The position numbers and the translations under genes were made by a program. A stretch of DNA of 64,000 nucleotides from Canibacter oris (GTDB lineage: Bacteria; Actinomycetota; Actinomycetes; Actinomycetales; Microbacteriaceae), in assembly GCF_014197205.1 (NCBI RefSeq), contig NZ_JACIFD010000006.1:1-64000 (forward strand), read 5' to 3'. The notes beneath the pieces were generated by a model. That model did not search any database and had not been told where the DNA came from. It worked only from the letters and a program-made list of their open reading frames with translations. Below, in pieces: positions 1,054 through 61,685 of this stretch; position 1 is the first letter of the stretch; every line of letters starts with the position of its first letter.

Positions 1054-1129
1054 GGTGCAACCTCCGGTGGTTAAAAACTGTTATGCGCTCTATTTTACTT
1101 TGGTTTTATTGTCGTAGCCGTTTTGCCGA

Positions 1130-1158: not shown

Positions 1159-1165
1159 TAAGGGT

Positions 1166-1369
1166 ATGTGTAGACCAGTGAAATGCAAACAGTGTAACAA
1201 GACCACCTGGGCCGGCTGCGGGCAGCACGTTGCTGCAGTGAAGGCCACGGTGCCGGCAGGGCAGTGGTGCACCTGCGGTGCGAAAGCGGGAAAGGGAAGT
1301 GCGGCTGGTGCAGCTGGCGGCGAGAGCGGTGGCTTTGGCGGCTTTTTGAAGAGCCTGTTCGGGCGCTAG
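1166..1369 (+). CDS. Cys-rich small protein with CxxC motifs, putative metal binder
   Basis: This 67-residue protein has cysteines at 2, 7, 10, 18, 35 and 37 (motifs CKQC and CTC), plus His21, followed by a Gly/Ala-rich tail ending in FGGFLKSLFGR. It probably forms a small zinc-ribbon-like fold. Short proteins of this type are widespread in bacteria but I know no defined function. It is the first gene after the CsoR/CstR-type operator and precedes the CoA-disulfide reductase gene, which suggests a part in sulfur or redox stress (inference). I chose the ATG at 1166, which coincides with the predicted transcription start; an in-frame upstream start at 1130 would lie inside the promoter and is unlikely. 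Confidence 0.75.
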   Translation: MCRPVKCKQCNKTTWAGCGQHVAAVKATVPAGQWCTCGAKAGKGSAAGAAGGESGGFGGFLKSLFGR

Positions 1370-1500
1370 AGCGCTGGGAGCTCTCGGCCGTCGCCGTAAA
1401 CACGCCAGCACCAGAGCACCAGAGTGCACGAGCGCAAGAGCGGGTGCGCACGCGACGGCGTGATCCACCCCCACAAAACAAAATTTGAAGCGAGGAAAAG

Positions 1501-3171: not shown

Positions 3172-3431
3172 TGCAGTTGCGCCAGGAGCAGAGCAAAGCG
3201 GCGCTAAACCGCCTGAAACGGGCCCGCGGGCAATTGGATGCGGTGATCCGCATGCTAGAAGAAGGTGAGGAGTGCGAGAAAATCGTGACCCAGCTCGCCG
3301 CGTGCTCAAAAGCAGTTGATAAGGCGGGGTACCAACTGATCGCCGCGGGGCTCAGACAATGCCTCGCCAGCGGCGAAGACACCGCCGAACTCGAAGAGCG
3401 CCTCGAACGCGTGTTCATGAGTTTTAGCTAG
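3171..3431 (+). CDS. cstR: CsoR-family (DUF156) repressor, CstR-like persulfide sensor
   Basis: An 86-residue all-helical DUF156 regulator beginning MQLRQEQSKAALNRLKRARG. In copper-sensing CsoR the ligands are Cys-x(24)-His-x(3)-Cys. Here Cys35 and Cys64 keep the 29-residue spacing but the His position is Gly60, so the copper site is broken while the two thiols used by persulfide-sensing CstR remain. An extra Cys45 is present. With the CoADR-rhodanese gene fused translationally upstream and a matching palindrome in the promoter, this reads as a reactive-sulfur sensor. The start is the ATG overlapping the previous stop, with AGGAAG just upstream. Family is certain; CstR rather than CsoR is a motif-based inference. 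Confidence 0.85.
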   Translation: MQLRQEQSKAALNRLKRARGQLDAVIRMLEEGEECEKIVTQLAACSKAVDKAGYQLIAAGLRQCLASGEDTAELEERLERVFMSFS

Positions 3432-3507
3432 TGCAAAAGCACGTTTTATCCTGATGTATTTTAGTTTGGTCAAATCTGCGGAGTAATATACGCAGCTAGT
3501 CGAGTCG

Positions 3508-3933
3508 TTAAGTATCAGAGTTGTGGCCTGTTGCGCTATCAAAGCGGTCGCGATTGGCGAGTACTTGAGGGAGATTAGTTTCTGCCCAGGTGCGAATCAT
3601 AGTTAAGGGTTCTACAGCGGTAGCTCCCAGAGGTGTTAGCTTATAGTCAACTCGGGGTGGCACGCTGGCGGTAGTGTGTCTTTCTATAAGACCATCCCGC
3701 TCCATTGTGCGGAGAGTTTCTGTTAATACTTTTGGAGAGATCCCTTCCACTTTAGTTTTTAGATCTTTAAACCGCACTGCCTTGCCGTTTGCTAGTACCG
3801 TCACGATTAGTGGTGTCCACCGATTGGTGAGGTGACGTAATACGGTTCGCGACTGGCATGCCAAAGCTAGAGCGTTTGCCGTTTGAGCAGCTGCAACATT
3901 CGGAGTCAAAGCTTCGCCAGAAGATGCCTTCAT
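3508..3933 (-). CDS. HxlR-family winged-helix regulator
   Basis: About 141 residues. The central HxlR domain reads LRHLTNRWTPLIVTVLANGKAVRFKDL, then GISPKVLTETLRTMERDGLIER, the usual HxlR winged helix. One Cys lies in ALACQSRTVL just before the domain; many HxlR proteins (YodB, HypR) sense quinones or oxidants through an N-terminal Cys, which may apply here. The ATG at 3933 has AAGGA 7 nt upstream, better than an in-frame start at 3966. It is divergent from the NAD(P)-binding protein at 4042 and very probably controls it. Base composition is lower in GC than the flanking core genes. Confidence 0.9.
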   Translation of the reverse strand: MKASSGEALTPNVAAAQTANALALACQSRTVLRHLTNRWTPLIVTVLANGKAVRFKDLKTKVEGISPKVLTETLRTMERDGLIERHTTASVPPRVDYKLTPLGATAVEPLTMIRTWAETNLPQVLANRDRFDSATGHNSDT

Positions 3934-3966
3934 GTGAATTTCCTTAAAAAATTTAGAAGCGTCCAA

Positions 3967-4007
3967 TAGTTACCTTGAGGTATCTAGTTACTAATTCATA
4001 CTATAGT
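3967..4007 (+). promoter_or_regulatory. Divergent operator/promoter between the HxlR gene and the NAD(P)-binding gene
   Basis: The palindrome TACCT-TG-AGGTA (3971-3982) overlaps a candidate -35 TTGAGG (3975-3980), 18 nt before a TACTAT -10 (3999-4004) reading toward 4042. TAGTTAC occurs twice with an 18-nt period (3967-3973, 3985-3991). This arrangement suits a dimeric HxlR repressor. Binding is inferred. Confidence 0.55.
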
Positions 4008-4041
4008 GGTGTTCTTTAGAAAACAAACAAAGGAGAAGGAC

Positions 4042-4644
4042 ATGAAGATAGCAGTATTGGGAGCAGCTGGCATGATCGGTAAAGAGATTGTTGCTGAGGC
4101 GAAGCATCGCGGACATGAAGTCTCTGTTTATACTCGCAGTGGAGGCGATGGCGCTGCAGCACTGAATCTATCAGAAACCAAGTCTGTCAGCGCAGTAATC
4201 AGTGACGCAGATGCAACAGTAATTTCAGTGGCGGGTCGTGATAACTACACAGCTCTCCTTGATGCGCACCGAACACTCATTGCTGCAGCTCCAAACGGAC
4301 GTGTATTGATTGTGGGTGGAGCAGGCTCACTTCTACTAGACGGCGTGCGGCTCGTTGATACTCCGCAGTTTCCGGAAATGTATCGTGAAGAGGCACTAAC
4401 ATTGGCGCAGATGCTAGAGGATTACCGGGCGTCGCAGGGAATAGATTGGACTATTATTACGCCTGCGCCGTTGATTGCACCAGGCACAAGAACTGCAGAT
4501 TACCGTACCGCGCTAGATAGTCCAGCTGGTGATTTCGTGTCAACTCAGGATTTTGCGGTTGCAGTTGTTGATGAGATTGAGCTTCCGCGACATCAACGAG
4601 AGCGTTTTACTGTGGCCTCAAAAGACGCTGCAGCGCGAGACTGA
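4042..4644 (+). CDS. NAD(P)-binding Rossmann protein, NmrA/BVR-B-like
   Basis: A 200-residue atypical short-chain dehydrogenase-like protein. The N-terminal nucleotide-binding motif is MKIAVLGAAGMIGKEIVAEAKHRG, and VLIVGGAGSLLLDG follows mid-protein, as in the NAD(P)H-binding NmrA-like and flavin-reductase-like families. It lacks the classical SDR YxxxK pair. The start at 4042 follows AAGGAGAAGGA; upstream in-frame codons lack a ribosome-binding site. Members next to HxlR regulators are often quinone or electrophile reductases. The substrate cannot be told from sequence. Confidence 0.8.
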   Translation: MKIAVLGAAGMIGKEIVAEAKHRGHEVSVYTRSGGDGAAALNLSETKSVSAVISDADATVISVAGRDNYTALLDAHRTLIAAAPNGRVLIVGGAGSLLLDGVRLVDTPQFPEMYREEALTLAQMLEDYRASQGIDWTIITPAPLIAPGTRTADYRTALDSPAGDFVSTQDFAVAVVDEIELPRHQRERFTVASKDAAARD

Positions 4645-4740
4645 AACTATTTTTGCTGTAACTTGATTACTTTAATTAGCAGCTTAAGATACCCAGAGTA
4701 GGTATTATTGTTCTAGATTTCAGGGTTGAAAGGAATCTAG

Positions 4741-5760
4741 ATGCTGCATCAAGTTCCGAACGCAGACTATTATCGCCCGGCGACGCTGCGGGCGCTCGCT
4801 GACCGCCAGGTAAAGCGTAAAAGCGAACTCGTAGCCGCGGTTGCGGTAGAGCTCGGGCTGAGCGAGCAGGCGTTGGCAGAGCGGCTGCCGAGCGGTGAGT
4901 CCCGGCACCAAAACCGGGTCACCTGGGCACTCTCATCGCTTTTGAAAGCGGGGCTGGTGGCGCGGCCGGCGCGCGGCAGGTACGAGATTACCGGTGACGG
5001 GCTGGCGCTTAACGCACGGGGGCTGGAACGCTACAGCGAAACCGACCTGCTGGAGTGGCCTGCCTGGCAGCAGTACTGGGCTGAGGTGCAGCAGCGGCGC
5101 GAGGTGGCGCAAAGCCAGAATGACGAGTTTACTCTCGTGGAGGCGAACGCCACTGCCGCACCGCTGCGTAGCCGTCACAGTGCAATGCCGGGTGGTGCCG
5201 CGGGCCAGGCCACCGAAGACGCTGCAGAGGTGGATCCGCTGGAGCAAATCTCTGAGCTAGTGGCACTCTATAGCCGCGAGGTGGAGACTGAGCTCAGGCG
5301 ACGGCTGCAGGAGGCGAGCCCGAGTTTCTTCGAGAAAGCGGTGCTTGATTTGCTGTGGGCGATGGGTTACGGCGGTAAGCACGGGGCGAGGCAGCTGCTG
5401 GGGCAGTCGGGCGATGGCGGCATCGACGGCATGATCCGCCAAGATGCGCTGGGGCTGAGCAAAGTGTATGTGCAGGCAAAACGGTACGCCGACGACAACA
5501 AGGTGGGCCGGCCCGCGATTCAACAGTTCTTCGGCTCGCTGTCTAGCAGGGGTGCGGATCGGGGCGTGTTCATCACCACCTCAAGTTTTACCGCGGAGGC
5601 GCGGCAAGAAGCCGAAGTGTATGAGCGCACAGGAAAGCGGATCATCCTCATCGACGGGCTGAGCCTCACCCGGTTAATGCTTGAATACCAGGTCGGAGTG
5701 CAGCCCAAAGCCATTCACACCCTCTACGAAGTAGACGACGACTTCTTTGAGGGGGAGTAG
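4741..5760 (+). CDS. mrr: Mrr-type restriction endonuclease (modification-dependent)
   Basis: A 339-residue type IV enzyme. Residues 1-105 form an Mrr_N winged-helix recognition domain; residues about 190-320 are the Mrr catalytic domain of the PD-(D/E)xK fold, with GDGGIDG (Asp229) and QAK (Gln245-x-Lys247), the D-QxK catalytic set of the family. Mrr enzymes cut DNA carrying foreign methylation. Codon usage and GC match the core genome, unlike the AT-rich DpnII-like genes that start 240 nt downstream, so it probably predates them. AAGGA lies 6 nt before the ATG. Coexistence with a GATC adenine methyltransferase means this Mrr must tolerate Gm6ATC. Confidence 0.9.
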   Translation: MLHQVPNADYYRPATLRALADRQVKRKSELVAAVAVELGLSEQALAERLPSGESRHQNRVTWALSSLLKAGLVARPARGRYEITGDGLALNARGLERYSETDLLEWPAWQQYWAEVQQRREVAQSQNDEFTLVEANATAAPLRSRHSAMPGGAAGQATEDAAEVDPLEQISELVALYSREVETELRRRLQEASPSFFEKAVLDLLWAMGYGGKHGARQLLGQSGDGGIDGMIRQDALGLSKVYVQAKRYADDNKVGRPAIQQFFGSLSSRGADRGVFITTSSFTAEARQEAEVYERTGKRIILIDGLSLTRLMLEYQVGVQPKAIHTLYEVDDDFFEGE

Positions 5761-5996
5761 GGTTTTAGAATAAATGGCAAGGTTAAACCTTGGCGGCTGC
5801 GGTTTTAAAGCTTTTTTATGGCTTTTCATGATTCAGAGGAATATAGATATTCACAAACTGAGTCGTTCGAATTGGGGGATTAGAGTTTGACAAAGATGAT
5901 AGGTTGTTGCTCACACCTGTGGGTGGGGCAGTTACAATGTTAGGTATAGATAGCTGCTGCTACTTGTTTCTATAAATATTGCGGACAGTCAGATGA

Positions 5997-6869
<873 letters not shown>

Positions 6870-6882
6870 CACGAAAGCAAAA

Positions 6883-7671
6883 ATGCTGGATTTAGAGTAT
6901 TACTTTAAGCAGCCGCAAGGTTCAGGTTTGATATTGGGAGACGCGTTATCGATTCTTAAATCGTTGGAGCCTGAAAGTGTAGATATGGTTTTTGCTGACC
7001 CTCCGTATTTCCTGAGTGGGGGCACATTTTCTAACAGTGGCGGAAAGATGGTCCCTGTCCACAAAGGGGACTGGGACATTGTGGATTCAGTAGAACATAA
7101 ACATCAATTTAATAGAGAGTGGATAGCGCTAGTAAAGAGAATTTTGAAGCCTAATGGAACCATCTGGATTTCTGGCACCTTACACAATATATATTCTGTG
7201 GGTATGGCGCTGGAACAAGAGGGATTTAAAATTTTAAATAACATTACTTGGCAAAAAACAAACCCCCCACCTAACCTGTCGTGTAGGTATTTTACACATT
7301 CAACAGAGACAATTTTATGGGCGCGAAAAAGCTCTAAAAACGCCAAACATACCTATAACTATTTAGATATGAAGCAACGCAATGGCGGCAAACAAATGAA
7401 AGATGTTTGGCAGGGCCCGTTAACAAAAGCATCTGAAAAGAAACACGGAAAACATCCAACTCAGAAACCAGAATATCTATTGGAACAGATTATTTTGGCC
7501 AGTACCAACCCAGGGGATTTTATTTTGGACCCGTTTGTTGGAAGTGGAACAACGTGTTTGGTGGCAAAAAGGCTAGGTAGAAGATACATTGGAATCGATA
7601 GGGAAAAAGATTTCCTCAATATAGCGATTAAAAGGTTAGAAGAGGCTGATGCAATCATTTCAAACTATTAA
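6883..7671 (+). CDS. dpnA: DpnA-like adenine methyltransferase (second GATC methylase)
   Basis: A beta-class methyltransferase, 262 residues: catalytic DPPY (39-42) in VFADPPYFLSGG precedes the C-terminal HPTQKP and DPFVGSGTT SAM-binding motif. DpnA of the DpnII system methylates GATC in single-stranded DNA, which protects incoming transformed DNA; the same role is inferred. It begins 13 nt after dpnM with only a weak ribosome-binding site, which suggests translational coupling, and its end overlaps the nuclease gene by 23 nt. Confidence 0.92.
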   Translation: MLDLEYYFKQPQGSGLILGDALSILKSLEPESVDMVFADPPYFLSGGTFSNSGGKMVPVHKGDWDIVDSVEHKHQFNREWIALVKRILKPNGTIWISGTLHNIYSVGMALEQEGFKILNNITWQKTNPPPNLSCRYFTHSTETILWARKSSKNAKHTYNYLDMKQRNGGKQMKDVWQGPLTKASEKKHGKHPTQKPEYLLEQIILASTNPGDFILDPFVGSGTTCLVAKRLGRRYIGIDREKDFLNIAIKRLEEADAIISNY

Positions 7672-8569
7672 TTACTCGGAACTGTCAGCCGACGATAAGT
7701 TCCAACTTTTCATGCGCACTCTGGCTACCAGCAACAGAACACCGGAATATTATGTGAACTGGGAAAAAGTAGAGCGTGGTGTTAAAAAATATGAGGTTGG
7801 TCTGAACACACTCAACTATTTAGTGGGAAAACAAGATATTTATCGAGAAGCTTTGGAACTTTTTGAGGATCAGCCTAAACTTTTAGAACTTGTCCCAGTG
7901 CTTTTAGCAACGCGTGATAAATATCTGGATGTTTTAGAATTAGCGGACAACGACACAATGAATTTTTATAGTCTCGATTTTGAAAACATTGATGTCACAA
8001 ACGTTAAAGCATATGTTGATTTTTGTGAAAAATCCGGATTGTTGGCGTTTCTATCACGAACAGTAAAAAAATCGTTGGTTGATTATGTTTACGGTGTTGA
8101 GGCTGGTCTAGATAGTAATGCACGTAAGAATCGTAGCGGTGCGATGATGGAAGCTATCTTAGAAAAAATAGTTTCAGATATTTCAAACGAACTTGGATTC
8201 GAGCATAAGCCACAAGCAACAGCAAAATTCATTCAAGATAAGTGGGGTGTCCATGTTCCAGTGGATAAATCCGAGCGCAGATTTGATGAAGCCGTATATG
8301 ACCCAAAAACCAGCAGATTATGGTTATTCGAGACAAATTATTACGGAGGAGGGGGCTCCAAGCTGAAGGCTGTTGCAGGAGAGTTTGCAAATCTTAACAA
8401 TTTCATCGCGTCTTCACCAGACGATGTAACTTTTGTTTGGGTTACTGACGGTAAAGGATGGAACACTGCAAGGCTCCCACTAAATGAGGCATTTGGAAAG
8501 ATTGATAATATTTACAACCTGGATATGTTGAATCAAGGAGTTCTCAGAAGTTTGTTTGCAAAATTTTAA
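7649..8569 (+). CDS. dpnC: DpnII-like type II restriction endonuclease (GATC)
   Basis: 306 residues, slightly longer than DpnII. I recognise DpnII family blocks: GLNTLNYLVG, LVDYVYGVEAGLDSNARKNR and NYYGGGGSKLKA. The catalytic PD-(D/E)xK-like residues are probably Asp213 (RRFDEAVYD) and Glu228-x-Asn230 (LWLFETNYYG), matching DpnII RFDF and IEVNFY. It should cut unmethylated GATC. The ATG at 7649 lies inside dpnA with AGAGG only 3 nt upstream, so expression probably depends on dpnA translation, a sensible order in which methylation comes first. All domains appear intact, so the system looks functional. Confidence 0.92.
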   Translation: MQSFQTINYSELSADDKFQLFMRTLATSNRTPEYYVNWEKVERGVKKYEVGLNTLNYLVGKQDIYREALELFEDQPKLLELVPVLLATRDKYLDVLELADNDTMNFYSLDFENIDVTNVKAYVDFCEKSGLLAFLSRTVKKSLVDYVYGVEAGLDSNARKNRSGAMMEAILEKIVSDISNELGFEHKPQATAKFIQDKWGVHVPVDKSERRFDEAVYDPKTSRLWLFETNYYGGGGSKLKAVAGEFANLNNFIASSPDDVTFVWVTDGKGWNTARLPLNEAFGKIDNIYNLDMLNQGVLRSLFAKF

Positions 8570-8987
8570 GTTTTGCTAATATATATGATTTGTAAAATTT
8601 TAATTGGTATAGAGTTGGAGGTTGAGGGTTCTAATTCGTAGGCAGTACTTGCTCCCTTTGAGAAAATAGACGACTTTGTACGTACAGTAAGAATCAACGT
8701 TAGGGTAAGTGCAACAGAAAATTTCTGTTCAAAATAATCTTAAGTCTTTGGTGTATTGCTTTATCGGTTTGCGCCGATAATGATGCTACGAAACTTGTTT
8801 AGAAGTAGTATTTTCGTGCAGATGAGTATTGTTCTCAGCCGGTGTCGTCTGTATACAGCTCCCGATTACACCTTGGTTATTTTTTCTAAGGTTTGGAAAT
8901 AAGGAGCTCACTTTTGTATAAGTTAGTTACAGGGTTTTACCTTAGGAGCTTCCTAGCGCTTTGTAAGCCTGAAACAAGAGACCTGAC
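8570..8987. other. AT-rich spacer without a recognisable gene
   Basis: About 420 nt between the convergent dpnC and membrane-protein genes. I see no credible coding frame: the one plus-strand frame from 8893 runs antisense into the next gene and has no family features. No strong terminator hairpin or tRNA is visible. Confidence 0.6.
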
Positions 8988-9527
8988 CTATTCTCGTTTT
9001 GGCGACCTGACTGGGAGTTGCATTCGTCTGTTGTCCGAAGTGCGAATGTGCGAGTGGAATTCTTGGGTTGTGAAATCACTCATTGGGTGAGCTGTTGGCA
9101 TCATTATTTTTTCTTTTTCGGTTAACCGCATAAGTTCAGCATGGATTCGGTCTAAATCATCAGCAAATCGCGTTGCAGTTTGCCACGAAGGATCTAGTGC
9201 GTCTAGTCTATAAATACTTAATATTCCGACTGCTTGCCTTGCTTCATCTAGAATTTCAAAATAGTTCTCGACCTGATTTAGAAAACGTTTTTTCCTTAGT
9301 TCTTTTGAGTTTTTATTTGAGAGATAAATATCGAACTGTTTTGTTATATTTGCCGGAAAAAGTAAAAAATCTCGGGCGGTTTTGGCTTTAACTATCATTT
9401 CTAATGCATATTCAAGTCGTTTTTGTTTTGTTTTACGCTCTACATGCCTTTGGTTCATGAAGATGGGGATAATGGAACCACCTAAAGCACCGAGTAGTGC
9501 GAGGATACTTGGGATAAATATTTCCAT
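8988..9527 (-). CDS. Membrane-anchored protein of unknown function in defence island
   Basis: 179 residues. Residues 4-24 (FIPSILALLGALGGSIIPIFM) form one N-terminal membrane helix, followed by a basic stretch (RHVERKTKQKR, positive-inside) and a largely helical, charged cytoplasmic domain that may be coiled coil. I do not recognise the family. GGAAGA lies about 9 nt before the ATG. It is 105 nt downstream of the TIGR04141 gene on the same strand, so the two may form a unit. AT-rich like the rest of the island. Confidence 0.65.
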   Translation of the reverse strand: MEIFIPSILALLGALGGSIIPIFMNQRHVERKTKQKRLEYALEMIVKAKTARDFLLFPANITKQFDIYLSNKNSKELRKKRFLNQVENYFEILDEARQAVGILSIYRLDALDPSWQTATRFADDLDRIHAELMRLTEKEKIMMPTAHPMSDFTTQEFHSHIRTSDNRRMQLPVRSPKRE

Positions 9528-9632
9528 GGTCTACGGTCTTCCGGTACGATGACTGTTTATAACAGGGGTTTTATGCCTAAGAGTTTGAACTGTATTGATG
9601 TTCACGTCAACTTTGCAAAAATAAAATTATAG

Positions 9633-11312
9633 TCATTTATTCGAAATAAAGTAGCGTGTTATTTTTTTTTCGTTAGCAGCTGTGATAGGAACCTTCAAGA
9701 TTTCCAATTGTAAGCCTAAACCACGAATAAATTTAGCTTGACCCATAAGGTTAACTTTACTGAAGAAAGGCAGCCAATCTTTGCCAGTGCGCGTTGAGTC
9801 AGTAATAACTGCGAATGTTATTTTATATTTATCTCTATCTGCGGTAGTGATTGTTTCCGGAATGCTGTTTAGGTAGTTGTTTGCAGAATTTGGTGTAAGG
9901 GATTGTTGGAAATAGCTTCTGATTCTATTACGATACTGTGCATCATGAAGCAGACATTGTGAGGCAACAACTCCCTGTGCAAAAAGGTGACTCAAAGTTG
10001 CGGATTGCGATTTTCGCTTGACGTGAATCATATTTTTGTCTGATAGAGAGTATAAATCGCAAAATTCTACCCCAGAAGGTGCCCCCTCAGGGTAAATTAT
10101 CTTTTTATCCATCAAAACAATGCTGCCTTTTGAGCTTGAAGCGATTCTGCGATTGTACTCTGCTTCTTTTTCTCCCTTATTGGCGGGAGGCAATGTTAGG
10201 TTTGAGTGTGCAATCTCGTTAATTGCACTATTAACTTTTGTTGCTAAAGCTTGGTTGATCTCATACCATTCTCCTTCAAGAAGAGCATATTGTTTGTCTT
10301 TATACTGCTTTTCAGAGACCAAACACCGGTACAGAGTCCAGCGTTTTTCCGATACTCCGCTCCTGCTATATGTCACATATACGTTGCGGCTTTTTAGCTT
10401 TGAAATGTCTATTTTTTCCCGTGCCTTTTTAGTGAGCTTATTCAGGTATTCTTTCAAATCTAATTCGGTGTATTCGTAAGAACTTGTACCGGTTATTTTA
10501 AAATGTTCGATGTCTTCCCAAGCAATCACATCGGGAGGAGCTAAATAGGTCAGGTCGACGTTTATGTTGCGTAAATCGGTTATTAGCTCATTATTGAGCT
10601 CTTTAATCAGCTGAGCATCTTTTACTATGGAGAGGTCGTCAATCCAATCGTAATATTTTTTATAGTTGTTGCTGTTAAAAGTTTTCAGTATTTTTTTGCA
10701 AAAGGCAAAAAGATTCCTAATCGGAGCGGAATTTTTTCCAGATTTCCAATCTGAGTCATATGTAAACACAAGCGAATCGCCGCCAGCAATGTTGCCTTGA
10801 AAGTAGCTATTGTCTGAAGGGCTGCCAGTGACGCCACGTAAGATATCAGTAGCAGAGTCTATGCCGAAACTGTAGATACTTGTTTTTCGAGCGGAGTTTT
10901 TGCTGTTGGAGATGACGCCATCCTCATACTCTTTAAAATCAACGCTCTTTAAATCTTGTGGTTTTATTTCACTTAACACCACCTTAAGGCCAAACCGATG
11001 CTCAATTTTTGATAAATCCAAAAAGTTCCGACCGTGCCCAAAAGTCAAAGCAAAGAATCGCTTCTTAAATTTAAATAAAAAAAGAGCTGAAGAGCTTTGA
11101 ACGTTAATATTATCGAGCGCTGGATGACCGCTGAATTGTTTAAGAAAATTAGCCCATTTGGGAGTGTTTCGTATAGGGTTTTCATAGTAAATATACCCAT
11201 AATCTCCCAGTTTGGTCGTCATTGTTTGTAACTTTTTCTCTGAGTGTAAAGCCTCTTTGAAAGTGTTCACTGATTCGTTGAGCAGGTACATTGTTATACG
11301 TTGTTTTGCCAT
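9633..11312 (-). CDS. TIGR04141 / DUF6119 family sporadically distributed protein
   Basis: 559 residues. I recognise the family from its N-terminus (MAKQRITMYLLNESVNTFKEAL), the region FGIDSATDILRGVTGSP followed by AGGDSLVFTY, and the late block IHVKRKSQSATLSHLFAQGV. Members are patchily distributed and often travel in genomic islands with restriction systems; I know of no firmly established activity. No transmembrane segment or nucleotide-binding motif is obvious. The start is the ATG at 11312. The downstream gene at 8988-9527 encodes a single-pass membrane protein and could be its partner (inference). Confidence 0.8.
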   Translation of the reverse strand: MAKQRITMYLLNESVNTFKEALHSEKKLQTMTTKLGDYGYIYYENPIRNTPKWANFLKQFSGHPALDNINVQSSSALFLFKFKKRFFALTFGHGRNFLDLSKIEHRFGLKVVLSEIKPQDLKSVDFKEYEDGVISNSKNSARKTSIYSFGIDSATDILRGVTGSPSDNSYFQGNIAGGDSLVFTYDSDWKSGKNSAPIRNLFAFCKKILKTFNSNNYKKYYDWIDDLSIVKDAQLIKELNNELITDLRNINVDLTYLAPPDVIAWEDIEHFKITGTSSYEYTELDLKEYLNKLTKKAREKIDISKLKSRNVYVTYSRSGVSEKRWTLYRCLVSEKQYKDKQYALLEGEWYEINQALATKVNSAINEIAHSNLTLPPANKGEKEAEYNRRIASSSKGSIVLMDKKIIYPEGAPSGVEFCDLYSLSDKNMIHVKRKSQSATLSHLFAQGVVASQCLLHDAQYRNRIRSYFQQSLTPNSANNYLNSIPETITTADRDKYKITFAVITDSTRTGKDWLPFFSKVNLMGQAKFIRGLGLQLEILKVPITAANEKKITRYFISNK

Positions 11313-11801
11313 AATTTATTCCTCAATGTAGGTTTAACACGAAGTGTTTGATTAGGAGTAATTTATGTGGTGAAAGGTTAGCCCCACCACTCCTAACCGT
11401 CGACGGCGTGGGCAGCTACTTTTATGGCAGTGGCGGGTTGTATTGCCGGGTAGCTATAAACCACCCGAAACTTAGAGGACGAATGAATACTGAGCTCTGG
11501 AGCTTGGTAGGATTTATTGAAACAAGCGTGAGCTCCCAGTCGTTGTGGGAGTCGAGGGATTTTAATAAGGATCCTGTCATGACAAAATAATCGCATAGAT
11601 TGTCCTGCAGCGAAATATATCCTGGCTGCAGTTAGACAATCGTTATTTAAGATCCTGGCAGAATATAAATTATTGTCCTAATGTCCTTTGGGGAGCGTTT
11701 CAAGCTTAAAATTGCACTTGAAGCTGATTGTTGGTTTTACGTTCACACGCGCTGCAGCGTGCCTCGGTGATGAAAATATTTAGTTTTCTGAACTGGTCAG
11801 G
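11313..11801. other. Intergenic region before IS3 relic
   Basis: About 490 nt with mixed composition. One plus-strand frame, 11348-11590 (80 codons from TTG), contains a possible internal ATG (MNTELWSLVG) but has no ribosome-binding site or recognisable motif; I do not call it. No RNA gene or clear terminator is seen. Confidence 0.5.
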
Positions 11802-13062
11802 GGGTCTGCTGTAGGTTTTGTTGCCACTTAGCTTGCTTCACGTGTGTGGGGTAAGGAAGGATGTTGATTATGCCGAAGTTGTATTCTCAGCAGTTCAAGG
11901 CTGATGCTGTTGCGCTTGTAAATCCGGGGATTGCTCGTCGTCAGGTGTGTGCTGATTGGGGGGGTCACGTTCCTCTTTGCAAAAGTGGATCAATGAGGCT
12001 CGCCTGGATGCCTATGGGATGAGCCCCTCCATCGCTACTCAGGTGAATAAGGAAATGAGTGCTGCGTTGCGTCGGATCCGTGAGCTTTAGGAGGAAAACA
12101 CGGTTTTGCGGGCTGCGGCAGCGTATTTGTCTCAGGAAGTGATCCGCCCAAAAGAATCTTCCCGACCGTACAGAGGCTAATCGCCTCAGGGTAAGCCACG
12201 CTCAGTGTTGCGGCTCGGGTGCTGGGGCGCGTCAGGCCTACTGCAAATTGCGTTCCCAGCCATTCAGTGAACGCGAACGTCAAGACCAGCGTCTATTGGT
12301 TGAAATTGAGCGTATTCATCGTGATGACCCAGAGTTTGGCTACCGGTTCATCGCCGATGAACTCCATGCCAAAGGGCTGCATGTTTCGGAGCGCAAAGTG
12401 TGGAAGCTGTGCTCCCGGGCGGGGATTTTCTCTCAGATCCTGTCTGCTAAGCGCAAGAGTAGGAAGGCCGGCCCTGCCGTTGGTGATGACCTTCTCCAAC
12501 GTCACTTCCGCGCCGAGCGGCCTAATGTAGGTGCGGGTGGTGGATAATTATCGAGCACTGAACTAGCGCTGGGAAAATACATGTGTGTGCTCAAGGGCTT
12601 GTGCTCACGTCGCATCGTAGGTTGGGCTACGGGTGGACGCATGACCTCACGCCTGGCTGTTGATGCTTTAGATGATGTAGCGTGAACGCCGCTATCCTCG
12701 TGGGGTCATCGTTCATTCAGATCGGGGCGGGCATTCCGCTCCAGAGGTTTCTAGGCAGCCTTAACGTCTTACGAGGCACTGGGGTCGATGGGAAGAGTTG
12801 GTGTCTGCGATGATAACGCAGCGATGGAGTCCTTCTTCGCGCTCCTGCAAAAGAACGTGTTTGACCGTAAATCCTGGGCGAGTCGCTGAGAACTTTCCAT
12901 GGCTATCACGCATTGGACCAAACGCACTTACCACCGTAAACGCAGACAGCAGGCGTTGGGGAAATTGACACCAATAGAATATGAGGTCATTATGAGACAA
13001 GCCGCACCAATCGCGGTCTAAAAACCAGAAGGAAAATTGTCAACCAAACCTACAGCAGACCC
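11802..13062 (+). mobile_element. IS3-family insertion sequence, degenerate copy 1
   Basis: The terminal inverted repeats are at 11802-11823 and 13041-13062; both begin GGGTCTGCTGTAGGTTT and differ at one position over 22 nt. Between them lies a decayed OrfA/OrfB pair. No target duplication is evident. The same end sequence recurs at the intact-ended IS at 45054-46327, so all copies in the window belong to one IS group. Confidence 0.85.
11870..13021 (+). pseudogene. IS3-family transposase OrfAB, broken
   Basis: OrfA starts MPKLYSQQFKADAVAL and loses frame near 11955 at a G-run; the downstream coiled-coil part (NEARLDAYGMSPSIATQ, then ALRRIREL) ends in a TAG at the LEU-stop-EEN junction. OrfB retains HRDDPEFGYRFIADELHAKG, then SERKVWKLCSRAGIFSQ, and later pieces (SRRIVGWATGGRMTSRLAVDAL, VIVHSD), but in several frames with stops. 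The C-terminal LTPIEYEV segment survives near 12970. Clearly inactive. Confidence 0.88.
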
Positions 13063-13142
13063 TCTCTTTTGCCGGTTCAATCCTAGAACCAAGGAACATG
13101 CTTGTTACCAAAATACGCAGCCGGCTCAATATAGTATTGATT

Positions 13143-13739
13143 ATGAGTTTTGATCCCAATGATCCGCTGTTAGCAGATTTTTTAAATCTTTGCGAGCATA
13201 AATTGATTCATTTGACGGATGAAGTGATAGAAAATGGAATTCAGCCTTCAAGTATAAGTGGTATTCAAGTTAATATTAGCCACTTTCCACCTCGCCCTGG
13301 GTGCGTATATCTGTCCTGTTTCGGAAGTAGCGCTTCTGTTTTAAAAAAAAACATGCTAATAGTGGACGCTGATAAACTTGACCCTAGCCTTTTCAGAGTT
13401 GATGAGGACCGCTTCTTTGCCGCTTATACATGGAAGCTAAACTTGTATGAACCTCAACAGGATATTCCTGAGTCGATTATGATGCGAGCAAAAGGGCAAG
13501 GGGATTACCTACATCAGAGTCAGATATATGATCCACAGTGGTTTAATGATGTGCAGGAACAGTTAGATACCCCTGAGCAAGTTCTACGTTCGCTTGCAGA
13601 AGGTTCATGTGCTTACGCCGGCACTATTCCACAAAGTGCAATTAGTGAAATAATAGAATTAAAACCATCTGATAAGTGGAAATACTTTCAAACTGAAAAC
13701 TTTCGCACTCGGTCCAAAAACATCTTAAGCAGATATTGA
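13143..13739 (+). CDS. Unknown protein flanked by two IS3 relics
   Basis: 198 residues from the ATG at 13143 (an in-frame ATG at 13098 would add 15). Acidic, apparently cytosolic, with no membrane helix, signal peptide or motif that I recognise. Segments such as VNISHFPPRPGCVYLSCFGSS and EGSCAYAGTIPQSAISEIIEL look like folded globular sequence. The frame is intact whereas both flanking transposases are decayed, which hints at selection or recent arrival. The two IS copies in direct orientation make it the cargo of a composite-transposon-like unit. Confidence 0.6.
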   Translation: MSFDPNDPLLADFLNLCEHKLIHLTDEVIENGIQPSSISGIQVNISHFPPRPGCVYLSCFGSSASVLKKNMLIVDADKLDPSLFRVDEDRFFAAYTWKLNLYEPQQDIPESIMMRAKGQGDYLHQSQIYDPQWFNDVQEQLDTPEQVLRSLAEGSCAYAGTIPQSAISEIIELKPSDKWKYFQTENFRTRSKNILSRY

Positions 13740-13758
13740 TTGGAATAAATCATAGCAC

Positions 13759-15031
13759 CGGACCGCCACTGGTTTGGTTGACTTTTAGCTTGTTTCACGC
13801 ATGTGGGGTAAGGAAGGATATTAACTACGGCAAAGCTATATTCAGAGCAGTTTAAAGCTGATGCTGTCGCGCTTGCAGAATCAGGAGAATGTCACACGTG
13901 CAGGTGTGAGCTGATCTTAAGATTTCACGTTCGTCCTTGTAACAGTGGGTGACTAATTCACGTTTACAAGCTCGCGATATGAGGTTTTCTCGTGATGCAG
14001 AAGTAAATAAGGATATGACTGCTGCTATACGCCGGATTCGGGAACTTGAAGAGGAAAACACTATTCTGTGCGCGCAGCAGCTGCTTATTTATCGCAGGAG
14101 GCAATCCGCCCAAAAGGATCTTCCCGACCGTGCACAAGCTAATAGCTTCAGGGGCAAGTAAGGCTTAGTGTTGCGGCTCGGGTGTTAGGGTTTCCCGTCA
14201 TGCATACTATAAATGGTTGTTTTGCCCTATTAGTGAGAGGGAACACCAAAAGGCAGTTCTTTTAGAAGAAATACGGCGTATTCACCGTGATGATCCAGAG
14301 TTTGGTTACTTGTTTATTGCCGATGAACTCCGCGCTAAAGGCCTTACTGTTTCCGAGCGTATGGTGTGGAAACTGTGCTTAAATGCCGGGATTTTCCCCA
14401 GATTGTTTTCCGCAAGGCAATAAGAAAAGAAAGCGGGAGCTTCCGTTGGCGATGACATTCTTAAGCGTCATTTCCATGCTGACCGCCCTAACAAGGTGTG
14501 GGTGGTTGATGTTACCGAACACTGGACTGGCACAGGGAAAGTGTATGTTGTGTGCTTAAGGACTTGTGTTCGCGTCGTATCGTGGGTTGAGCTGCGGGTA
14601 GGCGCATGACCTCGCGTCTTGCTGTTGATGCTTTAGATGACGTGATGCGGGAACGCCTATACTCTCAAGGTGTTATTGTTCATTCAGATTGGGGCGGGCA
14701 ATTGAGTTCAAGGCATTTCCAGGCAGCGTTTAAAAGGTTATGGGGCGGCTGGGCCGATGGGCAGGGTTTGGTGCGTGTGGTGATAACGCAGCGATGGAAT
14801 TATTCTTCGCGTTGCCATAAAAGAATGTGTTTGATCGTAAATCTTGGGCGAGTCGCCAAGAACTTTCCACAGCGATCACACATTGGACCAAACGCACCTA
14901 CCACCGCAAACGCAGACAAAGCGCGCTCGGGAAATTGACACCAATATAATATGAGGTCATTATGAAACAAGCCGCACCAATCGCGGCCTAAAACCAGAAG
15001 GAAAACTGTCAACCAAACCCACAGCAAACTC
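13759..15031 (+). mobile_element. IS3-family insertion sequence, degenerate copy 2
   Basis: Same orientation and organisation as copy 1. The right end (15010-15031) matches the consensus end with few changes; the left end (13759-13780) keeps only about two thirds of positions. Near-identical internal landmarks (GTGGGGTAAGGAAGG near the left end; GCCGCACCAATCGCGG near the right) align with copy 1. Confidence 0.8.
13828..14991 (+). pseudogene. IS3-family transposase OrfAB, broken (copy 2)
   Basis: The OrfA start codon position is ACG. The coding remnants AKLYSEQFKADAVAL, IRRIHRDDPEFGYLFIADELRAKG, RMVWKLCLNAGIFP and TSRLAVDALDDVMRERLYSQG are spread over frames with several stops and indels. The C-terminal part again ends near the inverted repeat. 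Inactive; it has diverged independently from copy 1. Confidence 0.85.
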
Positions 15032-15127
15032 CAATGCTTTTTTGAATCGCAAAGGCTTATTTAAGAAAAGGGCATGAATGAGCTTGCACTCCTCCTTGAA
15101 TGTAAATGCTAGGATCTTTTATGTAGC

Positions 15128-16378
15128 TTAGATACGTAGTCTTACTAGTCGTGTGATGAATGACTTCTTTTGACTTTTTACGGCGTATTCCTTTAATTCG
15201 TCTATTGCCGTTTCTGCTTCTTTTTGGAGCGTTTTAAGCCCAGCGGAAAAATACTTTTGTTTCTTTTTAATCCCCAAAATTATCGTAAGCACACAGACAG
15301 TGAGTGTTAATAAAATCACATGCGCCGTGTAGAACCAGTACTGGTCATTTTTATGCGGAGTAAAGTACCAGCTAAATACAGTTACGCCAGCAAGGAGGGA
15401 AAAGCCACCTAAAGTGAATAAATACGTTGTGTCAAAAAGAAGCGGGAAAAATCTATGCTTTGGCGAGGTTAGACGTGTAATAGATTTTTCGTGTTGATTA
15501 AATATTACGGCAGCCGACAAATAAGCATCTTCCCCTTCATCGCTTGCGAACAGAACAAATGCACAACCGATTGAGAGTTGTATGAGGGGAAAAACTATAA
15601 AGTACAGACAAATCTCTGGATGCAAGAACATGCCCGACAAAACTAGAGAAGTGGCAACAAATGCTGTAATTCCAATGTACTTCGAAAGGTGTTTTTCATT
15701 AAACCTTCTACTTGTTTCTTCGATATCGGATTTAAGTGCCACTAATTTTAGATTTCGGAAAAGAGCGGTTTGTAAGTTGTTGCTCATAAAACGGCCAGGA
15801 ACATTACGGTAAACAAATATGTTGACGCAAATTAGACAAAAAATAAAACCCGTGGAAACATAGCGGTTGACTGAAAAATTATATATTAGTCCTACAAGGA
15901 GATAGCAAATCAAAGATCCCGAAAAGATTTTTATTATAGATGTTATTATAGGTGTCCTTATGGGTTTATTTGCGAAGTCAATGATGCGCTTTTTTTCTGC
16001 GGGTTTAAATTCAAAATTAACTTTGGCTAGTGCCAAGATATGTTTGTGAGCAGAAAGATTTTTTTCTTCAGCTTTCTTCAGGTGAGATTCGTAGTTATTT
16101 CTGATATAAGAAACAGCTATAAGCCCGATACACAGAGCAGAAAAGCCAGTGTAGAGGCTGACTATGTTGGGAACTGAAAATAAATCTTTATCTTTGTAGA
16201 GTAGGTGACAGATGAAGGATAAAAAGTTTTTCCAACTCAAATCTGTTTGTCCGCGAAAAATGGCAGGCAGTGCGTAAACACAAAAGAGAAATGCAGTGAG
16301 TGCAAGACAATAAGAAAGAGCAGAAAGAACGCATTTAAACAACTTATAGAGTGTATTACTCTTAATGTTTAAAATCAT
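15128..16378 (-). CDS. Multi-pass membrane protein of unknown function
   Basis: About 416 residues from the ATG at 16378 (a TTG at 16390 is also in frame). I count roughly eight hydrophobic helices: near residues 18-40, 70-90, 155-180, 185-205, 245-265, 268-290, 330-350 and 362-385, with a charged loop of about 50 residues after the second and a helical basic C-terminus. No transporter or enzyme motif is recognised. Very AT-rich, with the codon style of the DpnII island, and so part of the acquired segment. No obvious operon partner. Confidence 0.65.
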   Translation of the reverse strand: MILNIKSNTLYKLFKCVLSALSYCLALTAFLFCVYALPAIFRGQTDLSWKNFLSFICHLLYKDKDLFSVPNIVSLYTGFSALCIGLIAVSYIRNNYESHLKKAEEKNLSAHKHILALAKVNFEFKPAEKKRIIDFANKPIRTPIITSIIKIFSGSLICYLLVGLIYNFSVNRYVSTGFIFCLICVNIFVYRNVPGRFMSNNLQTALFRNLKLVALKSDIEETSRRFNEKHLSKYIGITAFVATSLVLSGMFLHPEICLYFIVFPLIQLSIGCAFVLFASDEGEDAYLSAAVIFNQHEKSITRLTSPKHRFFPLLFDTTYLFTLGGFSLLAGVTVFSWYFTPHKNDQYWFYTAHVILLTLTVCVLTIILGIKKKQKYFSAGLKTLQKEAETAIDELKEYAVKSQKKSFITRLVRLRI

Positions 16379-57923: not shown

Positions 57924-58238
57924 ATGGCAAGCGAAGTAGTTGAACTCACCCTCGTGGGGAAACCTGATTGTCACCTTTGTGACGATGCAAAAGAGGTGAT
58001 TGAGCGCGTGCGCAAAGCAGCCGCGAGCAATGAAATCGGGTTGCAGTATGTCGAGGTTAACATTCTTGAAAACAACCAGATGGCTGAAAAATACGGCGAA
58101 GAAATTCCTGTCGTGTTGCTTAACGGCAGCCCCTACGCTTCCTTCCACATTTATGAAGACAAGCTCGCCTACGCGATCTTGCACGAGCGTGACCGGATGC
58201 GCGCCAAAGCCCGCCGCTGGTGGCGCCGCCGTAAATAG
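57924..58238 (+). CDS. Glutaredoxin family (DUF836) protein
   Basis: 104 residues of thioredoxin fold: LTLVGKPDCHLCDDAKEVIE with the redox pair Cys16-His-Leu-Cys19, and the cis-Pro in GEEIPVVLLNGSPY. The C-terminus is a basic helix (AKARRWWRRRK). Such CxxC proteins are common in actinobacteria; the partner is unknown. It precedes the ABC exporter pair by 55 nt and may share its transcript. Confidence 0.9.
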   Translation: MASEVVELTLVGKPDCHLCDDAKEVIERVRKAAASNEIGLQYVEVNILENNQMAEKYGEEIPVVLLNGSPYASFHIYEDKLAYAILHERDRMRAKARRWWRRRK

Positions 58239-58293: not shown

Positions 58294-59952
58294 ATGAGTT
58301 CTGATAACGACGCGGTAAAATTCAGAATTACCGCTCCGGGATACAGCTACGCAAAATGGCGTTTTGTGGTCCCGATGCTGATTAACGCTGTCGCTGCTGC
58401 GACGCTAATTATGGTGCCCACCGCTGTGGGTGCGATTATTTCAGAGTTCGCAGCGGGCAACGTCACCGCTGCGCTGCGCCTACTGATGTTTATTGTCCTG
58501 TCTTTGTTGCTGCAGGTCACCAACGAAAAAACCACGTTCGCGATTATCATGCGGCTGCAGTTCGAGGTGATTCGCGACTGGCGTAACTATATTTTCCAGC
58601 TGATCAAAAAAACTCCGAAGCAGGTTGACCCCGGCGAGGTCATCTCTGTTGTGGTGAAAGACAGCAAGAGCATTGCGATGCTGCTGTTCTCCTTCCCGGA
58701 TGCTGCCGGCTCAGTGGTGGTAGCGGTTGTCGGCACTGTTCAACTGTGGCTCATCAGCCCCGCGCTCGCGGTCACCGCGCTCAGCGGCATTATTTTGGCG
58801 GGTGTGGCGCTGTCACTAATCTCGAAGCTGCTAGAAAAACGCGGCACCGTGCGCCGCCAACGCACCGGCGAAAACGCTGCCCGAGCCACCGATATTGCAA
58901 CCAGTCTGCGCACTATTGCGGGCCTTGGCGCCGGCGCGGAGATGCGCCGTCGGCACCGTGATGCTGCCCATAACCTGCGTAACGCGAACGTCGCATACGC
59001 CCGGGTCGCGATGCTCACAACCGGGGCGCGGCTGACCCTCGTCGGCATTACGACTTTGCTCGCGGTGGGCATGGCGCTCACCGGCAACCTGGTAGACGGA
59101 GTGTGGCGCACCAACGTGGAGCCGAGCCAGCTGGTCGCCGTCGCCGGTACTGTGGCGTTGATGGTCGGCCCGATCTGGACCTTCGAAATGATGTTGGTCG
59201 GCTATCGGGAAACACGCGTCGCACTGCGACGCATCAAAACCCTTGAGCAAAAACAGTACGAAAAGCCTGCCGCCCTGGCAGAGCTGACGGTGCCAGCCGA
59301 GATTCTCGCCGGGCAGCAGCTGGTGTATGTGGATCCACGCTCCGCAGGTTTAAGCGCCCAAGAGTACGCCGAATCTCTCGCCGCAAAAATGCGGGAGCAG
59401 CAGCGTGGGCGGGTGCTGTTAAGTCAGTCAAACCCCACTATTTTTGCGGGATCGCTGCGCTCCCACCTGACCTGCGACGAACTTGCGGTGAGCGACGCTG
59501 ACCTCACCTGGATGCTGGAGCTCACCGACTCGCTAGAAATCGCGCACCGTCTCGGCGGGGCAGACCCGGCAGAGTATTTCGCGGCCGAAATCAGCTCCGA
59601 GGGCGCGAACCTCTCGGGCGGGCAGCGGCAGCGCCTGGCGTTGGCGCGGGCCCTGCTGCAGCCGGCGGCGGTGCTGATCTGCGCCGAACCGCTGAACTCG
59701 GTCGACGAGCCGAGCCAGAAATACATTTTTGATCGGCTCGAACAGGAGTTGGGCTCACATCGGCTGCTGCAACACCTGCGGCAGGTGATTGTGGTGAGCA
59801 CCACCTCGCAGGTGCAAAACCGCGTCGCCGCGGCGCAAGCGGCAGCGACCGCGCCCGGTACCGCTACCACGACTGCCACCGCAACCACGCCCGGTGCAAC
59901 AACCACAGCTGCCACCGCAGCAGCGGCGCACACCACGAAGGAGGCAAAGTAA
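58294..59952 (+). CDS. ABC exporter half-transporter with degenerate ATPase lacking Walker A
   Basis: 552 residues: an exporter-type six-helix membrane domain (about 1-310), then a nucleotide-binding domain. The domain keeps a perfect signature at 440-444 (ANLSGGQRQRLALARALLQP) but has no GxxGxGK(S/T) P-loop; the region where it should be reads LAGQQLVYVDPRSAGLSAQE. Walker B is AVLICAEPLNSVDEP, without the normal DE pair. It cannot bind ATP in the usual way and must work with the next gene's product. An Ala/Thr-rich tail ends the protein, and its stop overlaps the next start (TAATG). Confidence 0.9.
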   Translation: MSSDNDAVKFRITAPGYSYAKWRFVVPMLINAVAAATLIMVPTAVGAIISEFAAGNVTAALRLLMFIVLSLLLQVTNEKTTFAIIMRLQFEVIRDWRNYIFQLIKKTPKQVDPGEVISVVVKDSKSIAMLLFSFPDAAGSVVVAVVGTVQLWLISPALAVTALSGIILAGVALSLISKLLEKRGTVRRQRTGENAARATDIATSLRTIAGLGAGAEMRRRHRDAAHNLRNANVAYARVAMLTTGARLTLVGITTLLAVGMALTGNLVDGVWRTNVEPSQLVAVAGTVALMVGPIWTFEMMLVGYRETRVALRRIKTLEQKQYEKPAALAELTVPAEILAGQQLVYVDPRSAGLSAQEYAESLAAKMREQQRGRVLLSQSNPTIFAGSLRSHLTCDELAVSDADLTWMLELTDSLEIAHRLGGADPAEYFAAEISSEGANLSGGQRQRLALARALLQPAAVLICAEPLNSVDEPSQKYIFDRLEQELGSHRLLQHLRQVIVVSTTSQVQNRVAAAQAAATAPGTATTTATATTPGATTTAATAAAAHTTKEAK

Positions 59953-61685
59953 TGACCGAAAAAACTCTGCCTCTGGCGAGCACTAAAACCACCTGGGCGA
60001 AGCTCGGCAAATTAGCGCTGCGCAACCGCCTCAGCCTCATCGTGGTCGCCTTCGCCTTCGTGATCTCTGCGTTCGCGGCGCTGGTTACCCCCATCATGAT
60101 CGGTAAATTGGTGGATCAAGCCGCCGCCGGCGAGCTCACCGGATTCCCGTGGCTGGCGCTCGGGGTGATTCTCGCCGCGATCGTGGTGCGCGCAATCACG
60201 TCGATGCTGTGGCAGTATCAGGGCAATAAGATTGGTAGCAGCATCAACCGCGACCTTGGTGTTGAGGTGATGGCCGCCTCGCTTGATTTGAACGCGCAAA
60301 CTATTGAGGATGCCGGCAGCGGCGACCTGGTGACCCGCGCCACCAACGATCTTGACGCGGTTAACGACAACGTGCTGCGTTTCTTCCCGATCGTGATTTT
60401 CTCTCTGGTCTACCTCGTGGTGATGTTCTTCACGATTGTGACGCTCAGCCCGGTGGCTGCGGTGCCGCTGATTATCACGGTAATTGGGGTGCCGGTGCTG
60501 CTGTGGCAGATCCTCCCGCGCATCTCTAAACGGGTGGTGGAAGTGACCCGCGAAACCGCGGCGCTGTCAACCAAGGTCACCGAAAATGTGCGGGGCCTGA
60601 GCACTATCAAAGAGCTCGATATTCTCGATGCCCGCGAGGAAGTGTTGGCGGCGCAAAACCGGCGGCTGTTTGCGCTAGAACGGCAGATGGTGCGGCTGCG
60701 CACAACCCTGTGGGGCAGCATTGTGCTGGTCGCTGACCTGCCGCTTATCGTGTCGCTGCTGTGGGGTTTTTACACCGTAAATCAGGGGTGGACAACCTGG
60801 GGCGTGGTCGCCACCGTTGCCATCACCCTGTTTAACCTGCGCTGGGTTATCGACGAGTTCGCGTGGTGCCTCGATAAGATTCGTGAAGGCTCGGTGATGC
60901 TGAGCCGGGTGTGCGGGGTTATTGAGCTCGCTGAAAAACAGCGCGCAACCCGCGAGCAGGCGCAGCAACAGCTGCAGGCGACAGGCGGCAATGATACCGC
61001 GGTTGCGGCGCAGAACGTGGTTTACGGTTACGATGTAGAGCGCCCGGTGATGAAAGACATTAACCTTAAGCTGCAGCCGGGGGAGTCGCTCGCCCTGGTG
61101 GGGCGCTCCGGGTCGGGTAAAACCACCCTGGCGCGGCTCATCGCGGGTTCCCTGACCGCTGACCAGGGCACCGTGACGGTGCTCGGTAAAGCTGTCGGTG
61201 CGGGGCTCTTCCCAACTGAAAAAGCAGCTGATGGCAGACCGCGGCTCTTGATTTGCACCCAGGAAGCACACCAATTTGTGGGCACCCTGGCAGACAATCT
61301 CACGGTGGTTGCGCCTGATGCGACCCCGGAGGCGATGCGCGCGGCGCTGGCAACCGTGGGAGCTACCTGGGCTGACGAGCTGCCGCAAGGGCTTGACACC
61401 GTGCTCGGAGACGGCGGCACCACTCTGACGCGCGATCAGGTGCAGCAGCTGTCGCTGGCGCGGATTGCGTTGGCGGATCCGCACATCATAATTCTTGATG
61501 AATCCACAACCCAACTGGAGCTGCTCGACGCGGCAGAATCAGTACGGGGGCTGATGGCCGGGCGCACCGTGATCGTGATTAGCCACGACGCGCGGATCGC
61601 GGGGCTGGCGCAGCGCGCGGTGCTGCTGGAGGAGGGCGAAATTGTTGCCACCGGCACGCCGGAGGAGATTTTCGCCCGCGCCTGA
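59952..61685 (+). CDS. ABC exporter half-transporter with catalytic Walker motifs
   Basis: 577 residues: six-helix exporter membrane domain (about 20-310) and an ATPase domain with Walker A GRSGSGKTT (384-392), Walker B IIILDES (Asp516, catalytic Glu517) and the His switch in VIVISHDARIAGLAQ. The signature is degenerate, LTRDQ (492-496) in place of LSGGQ. With the preceding protein, whose signature is intact and Walker A missing, it forms a heterodimer with a single competent ATP site. Substrate unknown. Translationally coupled by a one-base overlap. Confidence 0.92.
   Translation: MTEKTLPLASTKTTWAKLGKLALRNRLSLIVVAFAFVISAFAALVTPIMIGKLVDQAAAGELTGFPWLALGVILAAIVVRAITSMLWQYQGNKIGSSINRDLGVEVMAASLDLNAQTIEDAGSGDLVTRATNDLDAVNDNVLRFFPIVIFSLVYLVVMFFTIVTLSPVAAVPLIITVIGVPVLLWQILPRISKRVVEVTRETAALSTKVTENVRGLSTIKELDILDAREEVLAAQNRRLFALERQMVRLRTTLWGSIVLVADLPLIVSLLWGFYTVNQGWTTWGVVATVAITLFNLRWVIDEFAWCLDKIREGSVMLSRVCGVIELAEKQRATREQAQQQLQATGGNDTAVAAQNVVYGYDVERPVMKDINLKLQPGESLALVGRSGSGKTTLARLIAGSLTADQGTVTVLGKAVGAGLFPTEKAADGRPRLLICTQEAHQFVGTLADNLTVVAPDATPEAMRAALATVGATWADELPQGLDTVLGDGGTTLTRDQVQQLSLARIALADPHIIILDESTTQLELLDAAESVRGLMAGRTVIVISHDARIAGLAQRAVLLEEGEIVATGTPEEIFARA

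Follow-up and report, generated by a model that had tools for sequence, protein, structure and literature searches.

Why asymmetric ATP-binding cassette (ABC) transporters keep a dead ATP site is an open question, and it is raised by a pair of genes at positions 58294-61685 of a 64,000-nucleotide stretch of Canibacter oris DNA (contig NZ_JACIFD010000006.1, positions 1 to 64,000; hereafter the window). Each ABC site is assembled from Walker A, Walker B, Q-loop and H-loop of one half together with the signature contributed by its partner. A reading made from the sequence alone had proposed that the two genes encode half exporters with complementary motif losses, leaving a single composite site able to work. 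The coordinates were confirmed, and all features described below lie on the forward strand: the first gene (58294-59952) encodes a half exporter of 552 amino acids (P1) with a transmembrane domain and a P-loop-less nucleotide-binding domain (NBD), and the second (59952-61685) a half exporter of 577 amino acids (P2) with intact ATP-binding motifs and an altered signature. Their reading frames share one base (TAATG). We think it likely that P1 and P2 pair up in a single heterodimeric transporter of the exporter fold with one ATP site, the other site being predicted to stay free of nucleotide. Moreover, the window pair belongs, as highly diverged members, to a widespread actinobacterial family of heterodimeric exporters.

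Motifs and predicted folds of the two halves

At the Walker A place of P1 (59317-59388), a strand QLVYV is followed by DPRSAGLSAQEYAESLAAK, with no GxxGxGK[ST]. The pattern G....GK[ST] is absent from the P1 protein and from all three forward frames of 59201-59702, so that a P-loop hidden by a frameshift, which the sequence-only reading had named as one finding that would overturn it, is rejected. The Q-loop equivalent SQSNPTIFAG (59422-59451) has its Gln replaced according to alignments, in which this position is not conserved. The signature LSGGQ is intact (amino acids 440-444; 59611-59625), and Walker B and the D-loop NSVD follow at 59668-59706. Walker B reads LICAEP; the alteration that had been noticed there is the change of Asp to Ala, yet Glu stays at the catalytic position. 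Because this Glu is kept, the failure of P1 is one of nucleotide binding and not of catalysis alone. In the H-loop equivalent (59782-59808) the His is absent and replaced by Thr503. The losses of the H-loop His and the Q-loop Gln are additions to the sequence-only reading.

P2 is the complement, as had been claimed. Its Walker A GRSGSGKT (61101-61124), its Walker B with catalytic Glu IIILDE (61485-61502) and its H-loop His545 (61584-61586, by alignment) are all intact, and LTRDQ stands in place of LSGGQ (61425-61439). The Q-loop Gln437 was placed by alignment at 61260-61262. As far as sequence can tell, the pair would have one complete composite site, made of Walker A, Walker B, Q-loop and H-loop of P2 with LSGGQ and D-loop of P1. 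The altered signature lies opposite the non-catalytic half, as in degenerate heterodimeric exporters.

Both proteins have the order of B-type (exporter-fold) ABC half-transporters, a transmembrane domain and then an ABC NBD in one chain. The Pfam scores of P1 are 32.5 bits for ABC_tran (cut-off 25) and 27.7 for ABC_membrane (just under the cut-off of 28), and those of P2 are 77.0 bits for ABC_tran and 80.5 bits for ABC_membrane. Predicted structures, all of single chains, agree with this assignment. The model of the window P1 (40 sequences; mean predicted local distance difference test score, pLDDT, 78.4) is an exporter half with a disordered low-confidence tail, and at the P-loop place its strand 342-346 leads directly into helices 348-351 and 355-365. 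The AlphaFold model of a typical P1 (L012; pLDDT 87.6, and 94-97 around the P-loop place) has strand 375-381, two residues and helix 384-395, that is, a two-residue turn where an eight-residue loop is expected. Both models align with solved exporters along almost their entire length. The top five solved matches of L012 are all heterodimeric exporters (Z 27.8-28.7), among which CydDC (Z 28.7, root-mean-square deviation (rmsd) 4.8, 548 aligned), TmrAB (Z 28.4, rmsd 4.3, 548 aligned) and TM287/288 (Z 28.0, rmsd 5.1, 546 aligned) are effectively tied. The window P1 is shorter than the family median, both before the strand (29 vs 42 residues) and from the strand to the Q-loop (26 vs 40), so the P-loop region has been eroded further in the window lineage.

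An actinobacterial family without the P-loop

Our first search covered the genome itself and 58 relatives. Another species of the genus (G004) has an orthologous pair, with P1 50% identical and in the same motif state. At 1e-15 this was the only hit among the four other congeners, the pair being absent from the remaining three and from all 31 other same-family genomes sampled. The search also gave weak matches in two genomes from other families of the order, both without the P-loop. At 1e-10, two partial matches appeared in one further congener. Comparison of P1 between the window and G004 gave 22 of 26 identical residues in the signature helix (85%, with 10 synonymous codon differences), 150 of 311 in the membrane domain and 13 of 45 in the P-loop region (29%). 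Judged from these identities, strong constraint acts on the LSGGQ side of P1 but not on its ATP-binding side. Named genomes, scanned with an alignment of these four P1s (window, G004 and the two weak matches), yielded at least 80 loci. Among the matches listed, 39 of the 80 had an LSGGQ gene without the P-loop (Streptomyces, Kribbella, Actinoplanes, Nocardiopsis, Lentzea, Amycolatopsis, Cellulomonas and other genera), and in 30 of these 39 a partner with the P-loop and without LSGGQ came after it within the locus.

To delimit the family, hidden Markov models (HMMs) of P1 (24 rows) and P2 (18 rows) were used, each including the window protein. The window P1 scores 472 bits with the P1 model and does not match the P2 model, whereas P2 scores 651 bits with the P2 model and 133 with the P1 model. 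A first cut at 450 bits suggested a wide gap to ordinary exporters, which members at 415 and 361 bits closed; an ordinary exporter was met at 354 bits, and membership was therefore decided by the P1-minus-P2 score difference instead. Frames with more than 340 bits for the P1 model and more than 150 bits over the P2 model were kept, and these 145 frames were reduced by a 100-residue core to 139 distinct genes including that of the window, 117 of them from loci outside the P-loop-less seed alignment.

G....GK[ST] occurs in none of the 139 P1-type genes, and even the looser [AG]....GK[ST] is found in only one (L162), in the H-loop stretch and away from the P-loop place. The turn at that place has Pro in 108 and Ala in 101. 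All 139 have an SGG[QE] signature (LSGGQ 107, FSGGQ 25, YSGGQ 4, VSGGQ 2 and LSGGE 1) and the D-loop Asp, and none has the H-loop His at its column or the two neighbouring columns. Walker B is more variable: its Asp is present in 32, the catalytic position has Glu in 94 and Asp in the other 45, and the Asp-Glu pair is intact in 30, which suggests that the P-loop was lost before Walker B. P1 shares its fetched locus with a P2 in 127 of 139 cases, and in two of the exceptions P2 lies upstream of a giant non-ribosomal peptide synthetase (NRPS) gene. A P1-like frame of 469 amino acids in L075 (3691-5097; 324 bits, below the cut), without signature and P-loop and beside an intact P2, is perhaps a broken or misassembled P1.

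Walker A is present in 134 of 135 family P2 frames, and the exception (L097) is cut by the locus end. This is the unbiased figure, as the 131 distinct P2 rows that were aligned have Walker A by construction: out of 157 P2-type frames, L097, which shows no Walker A, three frames of at least 700 residues (L054, L182, L185) and 19 ordinary second halves were left out of the alignment. The Q-loop Gln is found in 129 of 129 P2s, and Walker B DE and the H-loop His each in 96 of the 96 that extend so far. SGG[QE] is found in none of the 116 P2s reaching the signature, a count with a mild bias, the P2 model having been derived from LSGGQ-less partners. Chance or decay is an unlikely source of the motif state of P1, since the G004 pair and 139 distinct family genes share it; a sequencing artefact or pseudogene is unlikely for the same reason.

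As the P1 model had been built from P-loop-less proteins, membership was tested without the NBD. In a tree of 323 membrane-domain columns from 78 proteins, 35 P1s form one clade (support 100/98) and 10 P2s another (97/99). A second tree, which took in the most divergent P1s and the nearest P-loop-bearing relatives and left out seven rows, mainly ones with long branches or attached to such a branch, recovered 42 P1s (100/100) and 10 P2s (100/99). The window pair is inside the P1 and P2 clades of both trees, though its place within the P1 clade is not firm (94/85 in the second tree), and the stem of its lineage is very long (1.86 and 1.99 changes per column in the two trees). Moreover, an HMM built from the membrane domain alone found 144 frames above 200 bits, none with the P-loop. 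In both trees the P2s join the second halves of ordinary heterodimers from actinobacteria (95/80, 99/92), which have the P-loop and altered signatures such as ISAGQ. Convergent loss of the P-loop is not supported by the membrane-domain trees. From these trees the loss is probably old and single, having preceded the sampled diversity, and the likely path would be from an ordinary degenerate exporter that lost its P-loop once.

Two groups of relatives are worth describing beside this path. L181, L182 and L185 encode fused two-half exporters with both P-loops present, whose membrane domains score nearest to the P1 family, and they are possible models of the state before the loss. In L068 (3648-5648) and L188 (1345-3633), ordinary first halves have a Walker A that is degraded in part (SATGGGTS and ALTGGGKS); they group with other ordinary first halves in the second tree and appear to represent a separate early stage in the erosion of Walker A.

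In the class, P1 was detected at 1e-130 in at least 118 of the 246 genomes sampled (44 of 96 genera); the corresponding figure for the phylum is at least 41 of 396 (16 of 246 genera). These tallies are lower bounds, because scoring was confined to the 3 to 5 best candidates of each genome and the threshold misses divergent members, including the window's own gene and G189; the motifs themselves were read in the 139 P1s rather than in each tallied genome. Thirteen members from outside the class (L194-L206) are also without the P-loop. Thus, the loss described in the sequence-only reading is real, but it is no peculiarity of this locus and is an old trait common to the actinobacterial family.

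A proposed single ATP site and its alternatives

From the motifs of the two halves, ATP would be bound and hydrolysed at one composite site, in which Walker A, Q-loop, the Walker B Glu and His of P2 are closed by LSGGQ and the D-loop of P1. The mirror site (site 1), between the ATP-binding face of P1 and the altered signature of P2, very probably holds no nucleotide, as it has neither the phosphate loop nor the H-loop His nor an unaltered signature. This site may serve as a protein-only contact or hinge. A single ATP would then drive closure of the NBDs, and its hydrolysis would reopen them. Heterodimer formation, the nucleotide-free site 1, one ATP per cycle and the export direction are what we infer from sequence. 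For the family as a whole, we lean, with somewhat less assurance than for the window pair, to the idea that a large actinobacterial branch has abolished the second ATP site and that a design in which the NBDs close on one ATP, with a protein hinge opposite, has been retained both within the class and outside it, apparently for very long.

Several observations weigh against this proposal. Nucleotide binding of an unusual kind at site 1 is possible, since the models otherwise retain the NBD core and 30 of the 139 P1s have not lost the Asp-Glu pair of Walker B. The model of the window P1 reaches a pLDDT of only about 68-70 in the P-loop region. In addition, the query that first gathered the family itself had no P-loop, an objection to which the membrane-domain trees and HMM are an answer in part: the membrane-only HMM places three fused P-loop-bearing open reading frames (159-180 bits) among the two weakest P1s (157 and 196), although the second tree separates them.

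The strongest competitor is an ordinary degenerate site, in which site 1 would bind a long-lived ATP as glue through an unrecognised loop of P1, for example the P..A turn, together with the signature of P2. Heterodimeric exporters of the TM287/288 type have one consensus and one degenerate composite site. P1 and P2 resemble TM287/288 and MsRv1273c/72c in being two half exporters of the same fold (Z of L012 28.0 and 27.7, respectively). The available parts of the MsRv1273c/72c report state that the degenerate half keeps Walker A and that ATP is found at both sites (PMC12038006). Likewise, Pdr5, in the sections of its report at hand, has altered site-1 motifs in NBD1 and an altered NBD2 signature (LNVEQ) with an intact NBD1 signature, and it keeps a Walker A with Lys changed to Cys and ATP in the deviant site (PMC8421411). 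These two structures speak for such glue, and so do the preferred residues of the P1 turn, which is not random, and the Walker B pairs that persist in 30 P1s. However, in the confident L012 model the turn offers two residues in place of an eight-residue loop, and the P-loop pattern and the H-loop His are missing from every P1, as is an unaltered signature from all 116 partners. We consequently hold ATP glue at site 1 to be unlikely.

The same two systems show how far the loss has gone. The complementary motif loss of P1 and P2 is like that of Pdr5, a eukaryotic single chain with reversed domain order, whereas P1 and P2 are two genes with the transmembrane domain before the NBD and so are not of the PDR type. 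Unlike MsRv1273c/72c, P1 has neither P-loop nor H-loop His; the Walker A usually kept by a degenerate half is absent in the window P1 and throughout the family. The sequence-only reading was therefore right in calling the loss more extreme than in the usual degenerate site, to the extent that the accessible parts of both reports describe Walker A and ATP as kept. The Pdr5 authors, in the same available sections, rank the PDR subfamily as the most extreme example (PMC8421411); by its motifs the P1/P2 family goes further in site loss.

A second alternative concerns direction only and is compatible with one working site. The pair may be an importer on the exporter fold, like IrtAB or YbtPQ, chains of which are among the matches of both models; moreover, the members L024 and L029 adjoin a gene for a Peripla_BP_2 binding protein. 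The fold matches are mostly exporters, even if fold does not give direction. Gene order bears on this point. The coelichelin cluster has, as we take it, the order cchG-cchH-cchI, with SCO0491 and SCO0493 as G and I. This CchGI pair is presumed to be the coelichelin exporter in the portion of the source available (PMC12161575). The same order, P2, giant siderophore-type NRPS and P1 in a row, is found in L214 (Streptomyces aurantiacus, 1414-15992) and L215 (Lentzea albidocapillata, 944-15268), whose NRPS frames of 3696 and 3605 amino acids each contain three adenylation and four condensation stretches. The likeness to CchGI is by gene order alone, and import appears improbable to us. In L039, a locus of the same branch, an enterochelin-type esterase gene is next. 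By analogy, the best guess for the substrate of the NRPS branch is a small secreted metabolite or a siderophore. For the window pair, which unlike CchGI has no NRPS beside its genes, such a substrate is at most a possibility.

The idea that P1 is decaying or non-functional, and that P2 works alone or with another ABC half, could point to the long stem, the further shortened NBD and low-confidence tail of the window P1 and the absence of the pair at 1e-15 from most congeners and all other same-family genomes sampled, but it is hardly credible, because reading frame and motifs are kept in G004 with ten synonymous differences in the 22 conserved signature-helix codons, 139 genes share the motif state, and P2, without a usable signature of its own, would form a homodimer with no complete site.

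Neighbouring genes and meaning of the proposed one-site design

Directly upstream of P1, across a gap of 55 bp, lies a glutaredoxin-like (DUF836) gene (57924-58238; Pfam PF05768, 5.1e-16). The G004 locus (L163) has the same order, with the glutaredoxin-like copy at 9606-9920 and P1 starting at 9939 after 18 bp, and the gene is perhaps co-transcribed with P1 as an operon. By phmmer, no such neighbour was found in the fetched loci other than those of the window and G004, and the neighbours of other scanned members are varied. In Streptomyces-type loci, an ordinary heterodimeric ABC half or pair immediately precedes the P-loop-less pair, which makes runs of as many as four half-exporter genes (L016, 1257-9124; L020); an upstream ordinary half is also present in L094-L098, L100-L103, L105 and L106. 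A plasmid origin of the pair was considered and dropped, the only plasmid match being weak (27.8% identity over 58%). Membership in CydDC was similarly rejected. This thiol/heme exporter is the top fold match of the typical P1 L012, and CydC (200.6 bits) and CydD (194.0 bits) are the best curated-model matches of P2, but these scores are far below the NCBIfam cut-offs (329 and 435).

In the portions of the open-licence PMC literature available to us, we recognised no description of P-loop-less ABC exporter halves, the nearest being two ABCB5 papers. For RamA/RamB (SapB), considered as a further lead, a paper search yielded nothing of use. A review, in the part at hand, argues that no further divergence has taken place in degenerate sites and that the ATP they hold acts as a hinge (PMC7756269). 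As far as that part goes, the P-loop-less family contradicts the first of these views and can serve to test the other.

The family is thus a natural experiment on the dead site, in which this site has diverged completely while the active site is fixed and the pair is widespread. It would offer one-site machines in which, with no mutations needed, ATP stoichiometry, cooperativity and the part played by the second ATP can be measured. For annotation of actinobacterial genomes, a conserved LSGGQ does not certify an ATP-binding half. If the one-site mechanism is true, ATP in the degenerate site would be no necessary part of the asymmetric ABC cycle.

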